A DNA stretch of 34,323 nt from Clostridia bacterium. Its GTDB lineage: Bacteria > Bacillota > Clostridia > Oscillospirales > CAG-272. The DNA is taken from positions 1-34,323 of the forward strand of contig JAFYOX010000096.1 in assembly GCA_017547755.1 (NCBI GenBank), in the 5' to 3' direction. The notes beneath the pieces are model-generated. The model did no database searches. It was not told the DNA's origin and was given only the letters and a program-made list of their open reading frames with translations. A program made the position numbers and the translations under genes. Shown here piece by piece: positions 6,783 to 30,476 of the stretch. Numbering within the stretch: the first letter of the stretch is position 1; every line of letters starts with the position of its first letter.

Positions 6783-6797
6783 CCGACCTTCGGTCGG
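6783..6797. repeat. Outer flank hairpin shared by both copies of the structured element
   Basis: CCGAC-CTTCG-GTCGG lies outside the terminal repeat of copy A. The homology to copy B continues through 6811-6840 up to the terminal repeat. The matching hairpin in copy B is CCGAC-TGAAG-GTCGG at 30281-30295. Confidence 0.7.
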
Positions 6798-6840
6798 AAA
6801 GGATGAAAAACTCCCTGGCGGTCGTTTTTCTTGGATTAAT

Positions 6841-7301
6841 GTCCTGCGCGGACGGCGCATAAGAGGTCTCCGGCGCGAGACCTCTTATGAATCTCCCGCG
6901 CTGGGAGACCCATAGGGTCTCCGGAAGCCCTTCGGGCGGATTGTTATCGTTCAGCTGTGGGGTGGAGAATACGAACGAGACGCTTATACCGTCCGTATGG
7001 GAAGTTGATTCTGGCTGACCGCCGGGGGCTAAGGGTGGCGTTTGCCGCTATATCTGAAGATAACCTTCACCGCTTTATCTGAAGGTAACGTCCACCGCTG
7101 TTTGTACTGAACGTACGCTTTGGACAGCTTTGCACCCAACTCCGTCACTTCCGAACGGTCTGCTGCATGAAAACCGCTGTCTGTCCGAGCGCTCAAGCGC
7201 GAGTCCCACATACGCAGGAGAATCCAAGGGGGAACCCCCTTGGTCGAGGTGATTCACAAGAGGGCATCGACATGCCCTCTTGTGCGCCGTCCGCGCAGGA
7301 C
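6841..7301 (+). mobile_element. MITE-like structured repeat element, copy A
   Basis: A 461-bp non-coding segment bounded by 26-bp terminal inverted repeats (6841-6866 and 7276-7301, one mismatch), each starting GTCC-TGCGC-GGAC, itself a small hairpin. Just inside lie perfect 13-bp hairpins at 6858-6889 (loop CGGCGC) and 7255-7284 (loop CGAC). Further internal hairpins are at 6904-6922, 6927-6937, 7189-7200 and 7224-7243. About 400 bp is clearly homologous, in reverse complement, to 29844-30236; the block around 7170-7243 is almost identical. Overlapping open frames here differ between the copies and do not look like protein. No transposase is present, so movement would need a factor in trans (inference). 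It separates the rpmF terminator from the gene at 6124-6735. Confidence 0.85.
7040..7115 (+). repeat. Tandem imperfect repeats inside copy A
   Basis: Units of about 28 bp built on CACCGCTTTATCTGAAG followed by a TAAC/TAACG tail occur close to three times (7047 onward, 7070 onward, 7094 onward). Copy B contains only about two units in the corresponding place (about 30050-30095), so the number varies between copies. Confidence 0.65.
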
Positions 7302-7401
7302 AAAGTCCGGTCTGCACTCGCAGACGCCAAACAGACCCCGCCGTCCGCTTGCGGACATCTCACGCTGTCCGCAGGACATCTTCCGCCGTCCGCAGGACAT
7401 T
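7285..7401 (+). repeat. Array of small GTCCGC/GGAC hairpins at the end of copy A
   Basis: Four spaced units match the end of the terminal repeat: CGCCGTCCGCGCAGGAC (7285-7301), CGCCGTCCGCTTGCGGAC (7339-7356), GCTGTCCGCAGGACAT (7364-7379) and GCCGTCCGCAGGACAT (7385-7400). Each can fold GTCC against GGAC. They look like decayed or amplified terminal repeats outside the element. Confidence 0.7.
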
Positions 7402-7454: not shown

Positions 7455-7643
7455 TTACGCTTCTTCAGTTGTCTTGATGATCTGCTTGCCATCGTAGTAG
7501 CCGCATGCCTTGCAAACACGGTGAGCAACGTTGTATTCGCCGCAGTGAGAGCACTTAACCATGCCGGGCATTTCGAGCTTCCATACGTTGGAACGTCTCT
7601 TGTCGCGTCTTGCTTTGGATGTTTTTCTCTTCGGTACAGCCAT
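7455..7643 (-). CDS. rpmF: 50S ribosomal protein L32
   Basis: A 62-residue protein that starts [19 protein letters not shown], the hallmark of L32, and carries the zinc-ribbon cysteines CSHC (about 35-38) and CKAC (about 48-51), so it is the zinc-binding form. The ATG is preceded by GAGGAGG at 6 nt; the in-frame extension upstream is not part of the protein. It is the second gene after yceD, 63 nt downstream, and also has its own promoter (7695-7723) inside the 3' end of yceD. Confidence 0.97.
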
Positions 7644-26009: not shown

Positions 26010-29000
26010 ATGGAACGCAATGTATTTGATTCTATTAAAATCGGTTTAGCGTCTCCGGAAATGATTTCGAGTTGGTCCTGCGGCGAAGTCAAAAAGCCCG
26101 AAACGATCAACTACCGTACCCTCAAGGCAGAGCGCGACGGTCTTTTCTGCGAGAGAATCTTTGGTCCCACCAAGGACTGGGAATGTCTCTGCGGAAAGTA
26201 CAAGCGTCAGAGATACAAGGGTAAGGTCTGCGAAAAGTGCGGCGTCATGGTAACCCAGAAAAAGGTGCGCCGTGAACGTATGGGTCAGATCACCCTCGCA
26301 GCTCCCGTTTCCCACATCTGGTATTTCCGTGCCATCCCGTCCCGTATGGGTCTGCTTCTCGACATTTCACCGAGACTTCTCGAAAAAGTTTTATATTTTG
26401 CCGCATACATCGTCATTGACGAAGGCAATACAAACCTCAAGAAGTACGAACTTCTCACCGAAAAGGAATACCGCGACGCATACGAAAAGTACGGCTCCGA
26501 CTTCCGAGTCGGCATGGGCGCGCAGGCGATCCGCGAACTGCTCGAAGAACTCGACATCGAAGTTCTCGCAGAACAGCTCAAGGCTGAACTTGCAACCGCA
26601 TCCGGTCAGAAGAAGATCCGCATCATCAAGCGTCTCGAAGTTGTGGAAGCTTTCCGCAAGTCCAAGAACCGTCCCGAATGGATGATCCTCGACGTTGTTC
26701 CGGTCATTCCGCCGGAAATCCGTCCGATGGTACAGCTCGACGGCGGACGCTTCGCATCCTCCGACCTCAACGATCTCTATCGTCGTGTTATCAACCGCAA
26801 CAACCGTCTGAAGCGCCTCATGGAACTCCACGCACCGGACATCATCGTCCGCAACGAAAAGCGTATGCTCCAGGAAGCGGTCGACGCTCTCATTGACAAC
26901 GGCCGCCGCGGCAAGCCCGTTACCGGCCCGTCCAACCGCCCGCTCAAGTCTCTGTCCGAAATGCTCCGCGGTAAGCAGGGTCGTTTCCGTCAGAACCTTC
27001 TCGGTAAGCGAGTTGACTATTCCGGCCGTTCCGTTATCGTTGTCGGTCCGGACCTCAAGATCTACCAGTGCGGTCTGCCGAAGGAAATGGCACTCGAACT
27101 CTTCAAGCCCTTCGTTATGAAGAGACTCGTTGAAACCGGCAAGGCTGCCAACATCAAGGAAGCAAAGAAGAAAGTCGAAAAGGTTCACACCGACGTCTGG
27201 GACTCCCTCGAAAACGTTATCAAGTCCCACCCCGTTCTTCTGAACCGTGCACCTACCCTGCACCGTCTGTCCATTCAGGCGTTCGAACCCGTCCTCGTCG
27301 AAGGTAAGGCGATCAAGCTGCACCCGCTCGTATGTAAGGCGTTCAACGCGGACTTCGACGGCGACCAGATGCCGGTACACGTTCCGCTTTCCGCTGAAGC
27401 ACAGGCAGAAGCACGCTTCCTCATGCTCTCCGCAAACAACCTCCTGAAGCCGGTTGACGGCCGTGCTATTGCAACTCCGTCTCAGGACATGGTCCTCGGC
27501 TCCTTCTATCTTACCATCGACAAGGCAGGCGAACCCGGTGATACCGGTGACCCGGAACACCTCAAGTGCTACCGCGACTTCGACGAAGCCGTTATGGCAT
27601 ACGAAAACGGTCTCCTCGGCCTCCATGCTCCCATCGAAATCCGTATGACCAAGGTCATCGACGGTGTGGAACAGACCGGACGTGTCAAGGGTACCCTCGG
27701 CCGCTTCATCTTCAACCGTGCGATCCCGCAGGACCTCGGTTACGTTGACCGCAGCAAGCCGGAAAACGCATTCAAGCTCGAAGTTGACTTCGTCACCAGC
27801 TCCGGCAAGCTCTCCGATATCGTTGACCGTTGTATCCGTACTCACGGTTTCGCTGTAACTTCCGCCGTTCTCGACGAAATCAAGGCAATGGGTTATAAGT
27901 ACTCCACCAGAGGCTCGATCTCCATCTCCGTTGCCGACATGACCATCCCGCCGGAAAAGTACACCCTTATCGCACAGGCCGAAAAGGACGTAGAAAAGAT
28001 CCGCAAGCTGTTCAACCGCGGTGAACTTACCGAAGAAGAACGCTACGCAAGCGTTGTCAAGCGCTGGGAAAAGACCACCGACGACGTTATCGCGGCTCTC
28101 CAGGCAAACTTCGACCGTTACAACTCCATCAAGATGATGGCAGACTCCGGTGCTCGAGGCTCCATGACCCAGATGCGTCAGCTCGCAGGTATGCGAGGCC
28201 TCATGTTCGCAACCAACGGCCGTACCATTGAAATCCCGGTTAAGTCCAACTTCCGTGAAGGTCTTTCCATTCTCGAATACTTCATGGCAGCAAAGGGTGC
28301 GCGTAAGTCCCTGTCCGACACCGCACTTAAGACTGCCGACTCCGGTTACCTTACCCGTCGTCTCGTAGACGTTGCGCAGGATGTTATCATCCGCGAACAG
28401 GACTGCGGCGCGGTTCACGGTATCTGGGTCTCCGACATCAAGATCGACGGACAGGTCGTAGAACCCCTGAAGGACCGTCTCATCGGACGTTATCCGATCG
28501 GCGACATCTGCGATCCCGCAACCGGCGAACTGATTGCCGAAGACAACATGATGCTCGACGAAGCGACCGCAAAGCGCATCGTTGCAGCCGGCATTGAACG
28601 TGTTCACATCCGCACCGTTCTTCAGTGCCGTTCCCGCTACGGTGTCTGCGCACACTGCTACGGTTCCGACCTTGCAAACGACCGTCCGGTCAACGTCGGC
28701 GAATCCGTCGGTACCATCGCAGCACAGTCCATCGGTGAACCTGGTACCCAGCTTACGATGCGTACCTTCCATACCGGTGGTGTCGCAGCGGCAAACATCA
28801 CGCAGGGTCTTCCGCGAGTTGAAGAACTCTTCGAAGCGCGTAAGCCGAAGAAGACCGCAATGATCGCGGAATGTTCCGGTACTGTTACCATCACTGCCGT
28901 CAAGAAGACGCACAACATTACCATCACTCCCGACGACGGCGGCGAAGAAATCATCTATCAGATTCCGTTCGGCACGAACATTGTTGTGGATGACGGCGTA

Positions 29001-29789
29001 CATGTTGCGCCCGGCACGGCACTGACCGAAGGGGACAAGTGCCCGGCGGACATTCTCCGCGTCAACGGCATCGATGAAGTCTACGACTATATCCTTCTCG
29101 AAGTACAGAAAGTATACCGCAGCCAGGGTATCAACATCAACGACAAGCACATCGAAGTTATCGCACGTCAGATGACCCGTATGACCAAGATCACCGATCA
29201 GGGCGACACTCCGCTTCTGTCCGGCGCAACGGTCAACCTCGGCGAATTCTACGCCGAAAACGAGGAAATCGACCGCCGCATTGCTGCAGGTGAAATCGAA
29301 CTGCGCAAGGCGGAAGGCGAACCGGTGCTTCTCGGTATCACGAAGGCATCCCTTCTCACCGAATCCTTCCTGTCCGCCGCATCCTTCCAGGAAACCACCA
29401 AGGTTCTTACGGAAGCTGCGATCAAGGGCAAGATCGACCATCTCCGCGCACTCAAGGAAAACGTACTCATCGGTCGTCTGATCCCTGCCGGTACCGGTAT
29501 GGACTGCTACCGTAAGATCGACGTTGAACGTACGCGTCCGATGGAATCTCCGCTTTACAACATGGATCTGACCGACCTTGAAATCGAAGATGCCAAGGCA
29601 GTGATCCGCGGTACGGAAGAAGAAGACGAAGAATTCGAAATCACCCGCGACGAAGAATTCGATCTCGACGCAATTCCCGCCGATGACGAAGAATTCGACC
29701 CCGAATTTGACGACGGTTCCAGTGATTTTGATGATGACGAACCCACCGACGAAGATTTCGAAGCTGCGCTGAAGGATCTTGAAGACTAA
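26010..29789 (+). CDS. rpoC: DNA-directed RNA polymerase subunit beta'
   Basis: A 1259-residue subunit. Zinc site 1 is [20 protein letters not shown] (about residues 50-69). The catalytic loop NADFDGDQM has Asp448, Asp450 and Asp452. The bridge-helix region [16 protein letters not shown] and zinc site 2 (QDCG, then [16 protein letters not shown]) are intact. The last ~59 residues are a highly acidic tail unrelated to the catalytic core, which makes it slightly longer than usual. GAAGGA lies 8 nt before the ATG. It is transcribed with rpoB across a 210-nt structured spacer and ends at a strong terminator, so the str operon downstream is separate. Confidence 0.98.
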
Positions 29790-29814
29790 ACTTCACGTTT
29801 AATTTATAAGGAAG

Positions 29815-29841
29815 AAAAAAGCACCGTTCCGGTGCTTTTTT
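29815..29841 (+). terminator. Terminator of rpoBC
   Basis: An AAAAAAGCACC stem (29815-29825) pairs with GGTGCTTTTTT (29831-29841) around a short loop, 25 nt after the rpoC stop. The A-tract makes it potentially bidirectional. Confidence 0.93.
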
Positions 29842-29843
29842 CG

Positions 29844-30236
29844 ATTAATGCCACTGCGCGTGGCGGCGCCTAAGAGGACTCGTCGGAGTCCTCTTAGGAA
29901 TCTCCACGACCAAGGGGGTTCCCCCTTGGATTCTCCTGCGTATGTGGGACTCGCGCTTGAGCGCTCGGACAGACAGCGGTTTTCACGCGGCTGACCGTTC
30001 GGAAATTACGGAGTTGGGTGCAGACTTGTCCAAATCGCACGTTCAGTAGAAACAGCGGTGAAGGGTATCTTCAGATAAAGCGGTGAACGTTCCCCCCCAG
30101 CCCCCGGCGGTCAGCCAGAATCAACTTCCCATACGGACAGTATATCCGTCTCGTTTGTATTCTCCACCCTACAACTGCAATACAATGTCCGCCCGAAGGG
30201 CTTCCGGATACCTCTTATGCGCCGTCCGCGCAGGAC
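29844..30236 (-). mobile_element. MITE-like structured repeat element, copy B (inverted relative to copy A)
   Basis: About 393 bp of the rpoC-rpsL gap is the reverse complement of copy A. Its right terminal repeat (30211-30236) is identical over 26 bp to the left one of copy A. Its left end (29850-29877) has diverged, but keeps the small hairpin as GCCAC-TGCGC-GTGGC. The subterminal hairpin at 29869-29898 is a perfect 13-bp stem with loop GTCG (CGAC in copy A orientation). The hairpin CCAAGGGGG/CCCCCTTGG is at 29910-29929. Homology continues outside the right terminal repeat to about 30298. Compared with copy A it lacks a 6870-6922-like hairpin block and one internal tandem unit. It has no coding capacity that is conserved between the copies. 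Confidence 0.85.
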
Positions 30237-30447
30237 ATAAAATCCAAGAAAAACGACCGCAGGGAGTTTTTCCACCTTCCCGACTGAAGGTCGGCTCCCC
30301 CAAATGAAGTTTTTTCCTTCCTTTATATAAAGGAATCCCCCGAACGATTCCCGTCGTTTTATGTCTGAAAAAATCTCTAATATTTTTCCGAATTCAGAAT
30401 GATTCTTGTGCAAGTGGGAGAAACTGAATTACATCATTTTTAACCGC

Positions 30448-30476
30448 TTGACAAACAGGAAATCGGATGCTATAAT
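30448..30476 (+). promoter_or_regulatory. Promoter of the str operon
   Basis: Perfect TTGACA (30448-30453) and TATAAT (30471-30476) at 17 bp. The ~100-nt leader that follows contains a CCGGG...CCCGG hairpin near 30521-30538. The stretch 30299-30447 shows nothing else that I can support. Confidence 0.93.

Follow-up and report, generated by a model that had tools for sequence, protein, structure and literature searches.

The two inverted elements in the window, i.e., the whole analysed stretch of 34,323 nucleotides, are members of a family of non-coding repeats that lie between genes across the genus. We consider it probable (roughly 60%) that copies of this family recombine with or replace one another in place, that its origin was mobile and that those of its terminator-like edges which fold well act as terminators or insulators. 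The copies occupy the same intergenic positions in sister species, and from about the outer hairpin H1 inwards they are species-specific and alike within each genome. We read them as repeats of a BOX/BIME-like kind that evolve in concert while their places between genes stay fixed.

The window copies and the plan of the element

Copy A (6841-7302) and copy B (29844-30238) align in inverted orientation on opposite strands. The two inverted, near-identical copies of the original prediction proved real, with four common blocks at 81-90% complementarity (228 nt at 88%, 84 nt at 90%, 95 nt at 81% and 34 nt at 82%), and its terminal inverted repeats of about 26 bp were recovered as a 27-nt repeat (96%; 81-107 against 517-543 of the copy A query) in a BLAST search of the own genome. 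Both copies lie where they had first been placed, but their likeness extends beyond the ends noted then, on one side per copy (to 6779 in A and to 30298 in B), and covers two outer hairpins, H1 and H2, that had been overlooked. The features of the window are as follows.

6783..6797, + strand: outer hairpin H1 of copy A (CCGACC-TTC-GGTCGG), from the alignment
6799..6830, + strand: hairpin H2 of copy A with A- and T-tract, terminator-like, with a two-base internal mismatch, from the pattern
6841..6853, + strand: left end hairpin H3 of copy A (GTCC-TGCGC-GGAC), from alignment and covariation
6858..6889, + strand: left end hairpin H4 of copy A (CATAAGAGG..CCTCTTATG), from predicted stems and covariation
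6904..6922, + strand: hairpin H5 of copy A (GGAGACCC..GGGTCTCC), from predicted stems
6904..7071, + strand: half-module type 4 of copy A, limits being the cut used for half-module clustering
7072..7238, - strand: half-module type 0 of copy A, inverted, common with sister species G004, limits from the clustering cut
7255..7284, - strand: right end hairpin H4' of copy A, from covariance-model matches
7289..7301, - strand: right end hairpin H3' of copy A, from covariance-model matches
7343..7399, + strand: three H3-like repeats GTCCGC..GGACA right of copy A
7455..7643, - strand: rpmF (ribosomal protein L32), neighbour of copy A
26010..29789, + strand: rpoC, neighbour of copy B
29808..29842, + strand: H2 of copy B on the rpoC side, a strong terminator-like hairpin (z of the stretch -4.6)
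29850..29864, + strand: end hairpin H3 of copy B (GCCAC-TGCGC-GTGGC)
29869..29898, + strand: end hairpin H4 of copy B (CCTAAGAGG..CCTCTTAGG)
29914..30173, no strand assigned: half-modules of copy B, type 0 on the rpoC side and type 4 on the rpsL side, clustering-cut limits
30224..30236, - strand: end hairpin H3' of copy B, rpsL side
30248..30278, - strand: H2' of copy B, rpsL side (H1' plus H2', z -0.25)
30280..30294, - strand: outer hairpin H1' of copy B
30448..30476, + strand: promoter-like TTGACA-17-TATAAT, upstream of rpsL and downstream of copy B

The plan of the element was drawn from 27 aligned rows, comprising the two window copies and 25 further loci of the own genome. Inwards from either side it reads H1, AAGG with 2-3 further bases, H2, H3, H4 and the core, followed by the mirror image; the full element is thus a large imperfect palindrome, in which two half-modules, different in most copies, stand inverted between common hairpin ends. 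H1 is a short hairpin whose letters vary between copies while its arms match in many of them, its loop being often of TTCG type on the inward-reading strand, and H2 carries an A-tract ahead and a T-tract behind. H3 is GTCC-TGCGC-GGAC, with variants such as GCCAC-TGCGC-GTGGC, and H4 is CACAAGAGG..CCTCTTGTG with variants. Some copies lack H1-H2 on one side, copy A among them; on its right side three GTCCGC..GGACA repeats are present instead, an H3-like triplet (7343-7399) that occupies the place of the outer hairpins. In copy B, the inner end hairpin H4 is missing on the rpsL side.

The H2 pattern occurs three times in the window against 0 in 100 shuffles. Across the genus it was counted 47 times in the own genome and 61 and 72 times in two sisters, with at most one occurrence in each of the other 22 genomes. 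In several H2 hairpins the two arms seem to be of different types (CTCCC or CGCCC on one, GGTCG on the other), as though recombined; examples are window 6799-6830 and, in the own genome, 38560-38760 of contig C62 (L076). The mean GC content of the element is.576,.544 and.584 in the three species, and that of the window is.530.

Copy number and distribution

BLAST with copy A returned 87 pieces in the own genome (G000), which together with the folding of copy A (z -9.2) excludes chance. This genome, that of a gut bacterium, is 74.8% complete in 117 contigs, and all genomes compared are draft assemblies. Two-ended elements and single ends, as detected by an end-module profile in fetched loci, number 25 and 20 in G000, 30 and 9 in G004, and 27 and 15 in G013; several single ends sit at contig ends, and the 20 of G000 are single or contig-cut. 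The many copies per genome that had been supposed are therefore there. Lengths are characteristic of each species (420-460 nt for 19 of 25 elements in G000, 364-411 nt for 30 of 30 in G004 and 333-347 nt for 20 of 27 in G013), and the longest two-ended element found measures 711 nt (G018).

Further copies in relatives were found by covariance search, with end modules in 15 of 25 genus genomes. An end-module covariance model (R1) was built from 26 ends taken from 11 of these 25 genomes, so that matches in those 11 arise partly by construction. At E up to 0.01 it detected 73 ends in G000, 31-103 in 11 other genus genomes and 8-16 in another three; the remaining 10 had none. In a family-level covariance search, 5 of 246 genomes matched, in 2 of 71 genera, the sample, searched with strict filters, including 6 or more of the 25 genus genomes but falling short of the full set. 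Among named contigs, 16 stretches contain the exact 21-base end motif. They come from four assemblies of metagenomes (RGIG1778 from goat caecum, RGIG6935 from sheep rumen, and SIG618 and RUG12898), and their labels are Clostridia, Oscillospiraceae or uncultured Ruminococcus. Phage and plasmid records gave no element match, and IMG/VR no exact 21-base end motif.

Several loci depart from the common pattern. Among the matches listed for G011, G012 and G020, many end modules have identical scores and lie near contig ends, in G012 above all; these probably represent recent copies, nearly identical, at which the assembly broke. G003 (L267:1514-2078, an element of about 565 nt) and G012 (L257:809-1150) carry other cores between the same ends, with common stretches of their own starting near GTGCGTACC and no Rfam match on related loci. 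In G007 (L094, C35:17400-19900), elements succeed each other, separated by a terminator-like spacer.

Positions are shared between sister species

Flanks were compared at 126 sites with an element end in three species (G000, G004 and G013). Of 86 flank-linked site pairs, 32 were dropped for any inconsistent flank match and 54 were consistent, 36 of them on both flanks (16 between G000 and G004, 10 between G000 and G013 and 10 between G004 and G013). As these 36 two-flank positions are occupied in two of three sister species, they look old. The flanking DNA is 85.0, 86.5 and 84.9% identical over 33, 28 and 25 kb. Both window copies sit at sites occupied in all three species, the counterparts of copy A in G004 and G013 having one detected end.

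The rpoC-rpsL interval holds an element in G000 (copy B), G004 and G013, whose AAGG begins 18, 21 and 20 nt past the rpoC stop, respectively. Empty sites were sought and found here: in eight relatives (G001, G007, G008, G014, G015, G018, G021 and G022) the interval is free of the element and consists of a plain terminator, identified by eye, a promoter-like site and the rpsL start. In a ninth relative, G002, the sequence compared ends at the start codon, and the remaining loci have another gene order or are cut.

Reduced forms occur as well. At one site where G000 and G013 carry an element, G004 is reduced to a single H2 between both outer flanks, which are 89-95% identical to theirs. At another, G000 carries a 130-nt short form and G013 a lone H2, with a match on both flanks; a full G004 element adjoins the same gene as the G013 lone H2, with one flank agreeing. 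Such lone H2 and short forms may be deletions between similar end hairpins, or landing sites. Two half-elements of G000, L063 (C62:77847 onwards) and L070 (C75:40416 onwards), consist of one half-module alone and are cut at about the same inner point (GACCGCCGGGG).

Cores and half-modules are rewritten by species

The original prediction had overlooked the build from two halves and the species-specific rewriting at fixed positions. Core identity within genomes averages.66,.81 and.81. Between species, cores at shared sites were about as alike as random cross-species pairs, at.448 versus.445 (11 pairs),.066 versus.049 (6 pairs) and.030 versus.040 (7 pairs), 5 of the 24 pairs resting on one flank. 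In 1000 draws of random partners, the likeness of the true pairs was equalled or exceeded 153, 388 and 453 times; end gaps were free in the comparison of means and penalised in the draws.

A profile of site-specific likeness over 38 orthologous ends, which set identity at shared sites against random identity, located the transition. As a positive control, the stretch 120-200 nt outside the ends gave.715 at shared sites versus.545 at random, followed by.661 versus.524 at 70-120 nt outside,.561 versus.509 in H1,.730 versus.692 in H2,.828 versus.804 in H3,.644 versus.649 in H4 and.551 versus.555 further inwards. Likeness tied to the site drops away at H1. A few ends retain more of it: an identity of at least.8 was reached in H1-H2 by 4 of the 38 ends (random 2.5%), and in H3-H4 by 7 of the 38 (random 11.5%).

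Halves were clustered reading inwards, and one clustering method gave five main types. Types 0+1 make up 29 of 30 elements in G004, 0+4 make up 22 of 25 in G000 and 2+3 make up 26 of 27 in G013; one half-module thus differs between sisters at nearly all sites, and type 4 was found, among the three species compared, in G000 only. One G000 copy (contig C43) is 0+1 like those of G004, and its core is most like that of its G004 ortholog (.75; type-0 half.79). On the simplest reading of these sequences, 0+1 would be the older arrangement, and type 4 would have taken the place of type 1 at nearly all sites of the G000 lineage, with the direction of change deduced. At 10 shared sites (one pair with single flank support), the type-0 half common to both species was on matching sides five times and on opposite sides five times, from which orientation is apparently not kept and appears random at shared sites.

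We infer that the most likely mechanism is recombination between copies through their shared palindromic ends and arms. Copies within a genome would recombine with or replace one another via the common palindromic ends, by gene conversion or by an end-guided exchange acting on DNA hairpins; the route might run through ends and arms, perhaps with the help of a hairpin-specific enzyme. The family may have originated as a mobile repeat that depended on a trans-acting enzyme, and may still spread slowly in that way. Among the draft assemblies no strain was found in mid-conversion, and the C43 relic is a single copy.

A stronger version, which we hold as a tentative possibility, is cassette replacement, in which fixed hairpin docking sites would have half-modules exchanged either way round at dozens of loci by an undescribed hairpin-specific enzyme. 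If true, each species would rewrite its whole set of elements.

Target duplications and candidate enzymes

MITEs such as Correia, RUP and Nezha are known, and one account describes MITEs as AT-rich (PMC3049150). The element resembles them in being short, folded, non-coding and multi-copy with terminal inverted repeats, and differs in its GC content (.544-.584), in the absence of a target duplication and in that no partner transposase was found in the loci read. At the H3 boundary, the longest direct repeat averaged 4.18 nt versus 4.13 in re-paired flanks (82 elements), and at the outer boundary 3.90 versus 3.80 (52 elements with both H2 found). Target duplications, a sign to be looked for in a MITE-like family, were therefore absent at either possible boundary, and a plain MITE is not shown. 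As had been remarked for the window, no transposase is visible: none sharing the ends turned up in the loci read, the genomes being draft and incomplete.

Genus-wide, neither RAYT (REP-associated tyrosine transposase) nor reverse transcriptase nor IS110 co-occurs with the elements in a comparison of 12 element-rich with 10 element-free genomes, which excluded the three that have 8-16 end hits. RAYT occurs in 5 of 12 versus 3 of 10 and is absent from G013, and was rejected as a partner. Reverse transcriptase (3 of 12 versus 6 of 10) and IS110 (2 of 12 versus 5 of 10) were rejected too, neither having a positive association. A 1.9-kb pair of ends in G009, considered as an autonomous element, resolved into two elements around a kinase-like gene (from its translation), and the 711-nt element of G018 has no open frame of at least 60 aa wholly inside.

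An ordinary MITE, mobilised by a transposase in trans, would have to owe its shared positions to strong site preference and to repeated independent insertion in each species rather than to inheritance. Species-specific cores, random orientation at shared sites (5/10) and the identical-score ends near contig ends among the matches listed for G011, G012 and G020, which suggest recent spread, would all fit, as would the inverted repeats and the many non-coding copies. We nevertheless regard it as unlikely, as it is opposed by the missing target duplications at both boundaries, by flanks near a 2:1:1 ratio of tandem, convergent and divergent genes with no common target, and by the start of AAGG 18, 21 and 20 nt past the rpoC stop in three species.

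Neighbouring genes and terminator-like edges

By an ORF-based call, the genes flanking 82 elements are tandem in 41 cases, convergent in 17, divergent in 17 and undecided in 7. These orientations are as random placing would give, and a preference for convergent genes was not found (17/82). The H1-H2 hairpins point inwards. Immediately beyond the ends of some copies, promoter-like sites begin, as judged by eye and, for copy B, by a scan; sites similar to that at 30448..30476 are present in relatives without the element. Against shuffles, the H1-H2 stretches of the window reached z -4.6 on the rpoC side of copy B, -0.66 in copy A and -0.25 on the rpsL side of copy B. As only one of the three beats shuffles, a terminator function cannot hold equally for all copies.

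The hairpins that fold well may act as terminators or insulators between neighbouring transcripts, and with such a role the positions would be tolerable and perhaps kept. Insulation between neighbouring transcripts is a natural guess from these sequences.

Efar repeats of Enterococcus faecalis are small modular repeats of about 170 bp that act as bidirectional terminators; we know of no half-module swap in them. The element, likewise modular, has A/T-flanked hairpins of uneven folding strength, which might act in a similar way. A 163-bp family of E. faecalis, Efa-1, has also been named; we do not equate it with Efar. If the element were a host-selected terminator or insulator module of the Efar kind, it would be immobile and its turnover would be hairpin-by-hairpin recombination only. 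We think this quite improbable: inward terminator-like hairpins, shared positions and promoter-like sites outside some copies agree with it, but it leaves the large species-specific cores unexplained, eight relatives do without the element at rpoC, and two of the three H1-H2 stretches in the window fold poorly.

Coding capacity and folding as RNA or DNA

The lengths of 25, 30 and 27 elements of the three species spread over all three frames, and the longest open stretch shifts frame between copies, which bears out that the element is non-coding, with no conserved reading frame. Folded either as RNA (z -9.2) or as DNA (z -8.6), copy A is far more stable than its shuffles, so that folding alone cannot separate the two; for copy B the signal is weaker (z -3.9). 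In the stems of the end module, 45 cells have both sides changed versus 11.9 in shuffles, and one-sided cells number 0. Column pair 31/46 is unpaired in 15 of 26 sequences, many of these having A-C there, equivalent to G-T on the opposite strand.

Mismatches of the G-T and A-C kinds were counted in stems predicted on both strands. On the alignment strand their ratio is 51:30 in G000 (p 0.026) and 121:105 and 58:50 in the other two species, summing to 230:185 (p 0.03). Wobble pairs are close to symmetric, as DNA palindromes predict, and the slight lean leaves RNA open. A promoter scan found no match inside copy A, and inside copy B one weak 9/12 match of the sort that shuffles yield. Rfam at curated thresholds reported two tRNAs in the window and nothing over the element, and a search of 12 element loci with E up to 5 gave no match that was not far under its family cut-off. 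In keeping with the first impression of no described family, none of Rfam is recognised. A group II intron, suggested by GTGCG in the cores of two relatives, received no support from Rfam and was rejected.

Of the initial choice between a MITE-like and a structured-RNA family, the non-coding, hairpin-rich and MITE-like character with terminal inverted repeats and many copies stood, and target duplications and a positive sign of a transcribed RNA did not appear; for the latter, the promoter scan covered both window copies and the wobble was near strand-symmetric. That each copy is the gene of a transcribed structured RNA closed by a stem, the family evolving in concert as rRNA genes do, seems to us improbable as well. 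The folding of copy A, the covarying end stems, the TTCG-type loops in many H1, the slight G-T excess and the weak promoter-like match within copy B lean towards it; a convincing internal promoter is, however, absent in both window copies, H1-H2 point inwards, wobble is symmetric in two of three species, and the half-modules are mostly unalignable between sisters and have no Rfam match.

Relation to known repeat families

Repeats scattered over bacterial genomes tend to be taken either for slow transposons or for fixed relics. In this family the positions persist, and sequence, half-module and apparently orientation differ genome-wide between sisters whose flanks are about 85% identical. Since positions are kept and content is rewritten, the concerted evolution of dispersed repeats, and the enzyme behind it, become directly testable; repeats of such kind cannot be dated from their own sequence. 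Our searches of open-access literature brought up no description of the element family or of the rewriting pattern.

By analogy, the element would work most like BOX, BIMEs/REPINs and Efar, and the tests made do not show it to be a member of any of them; it is filed among the modular intergenic palindromic repeats as a new variant. REPINs are several times shorter than the element, and gene conversion was reportedly raised for REPs in a 1988 review. In an account of Streptococcus repeats, BOX elements are modular hairpin-forming intergenic repeats whose size varies by module, and about half of the small-repeat insertions are present in all sequenced strains (PMC3049150). The element shares with BOX, as described there, interchangeable modules, intergenic placing and shared insertion sites. 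Compared by description only, BOX differs in being boxA-boxB(n)-boxC with tandem boxB, whereas the element has two inverted half-modules, hairpin ends and terminator-like edges. With REPINs/BIMEs and their RAYTs, as treated in two accounts (PMC3116915, PMC3733652), it shares inverted palindrome pairs and compensatory changes, but it has neither the GTAG tag nor a matching RAYT. CGTC stands beside H3' in some copies and changes along with the stem in others.

That the elements are REPIN-like repeats moved by a RAYT is very improbable: the palindrome pairs, intergenic placing, compensatory changes and a RAYT-like gene in the own genome would suit it, but this gene is flanked by GTAG-type palindromes instead of element ends, and RAYT occurrence does not follow the elements among the genomes compared. 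The gene, L223:1459-1959 on the minus strand of G000 contig C89, encodes 166 aa and matches the NCBIfam REP-associated tyrosine transposase at 68.9 bits, below the cut-off of 80. It has its own GTAG-type palindromes at 1286-1416 (GTAGGGGCGATTCACGAATCGCCC plus mirror), and these are a separate REPIN-like family in the own genome.
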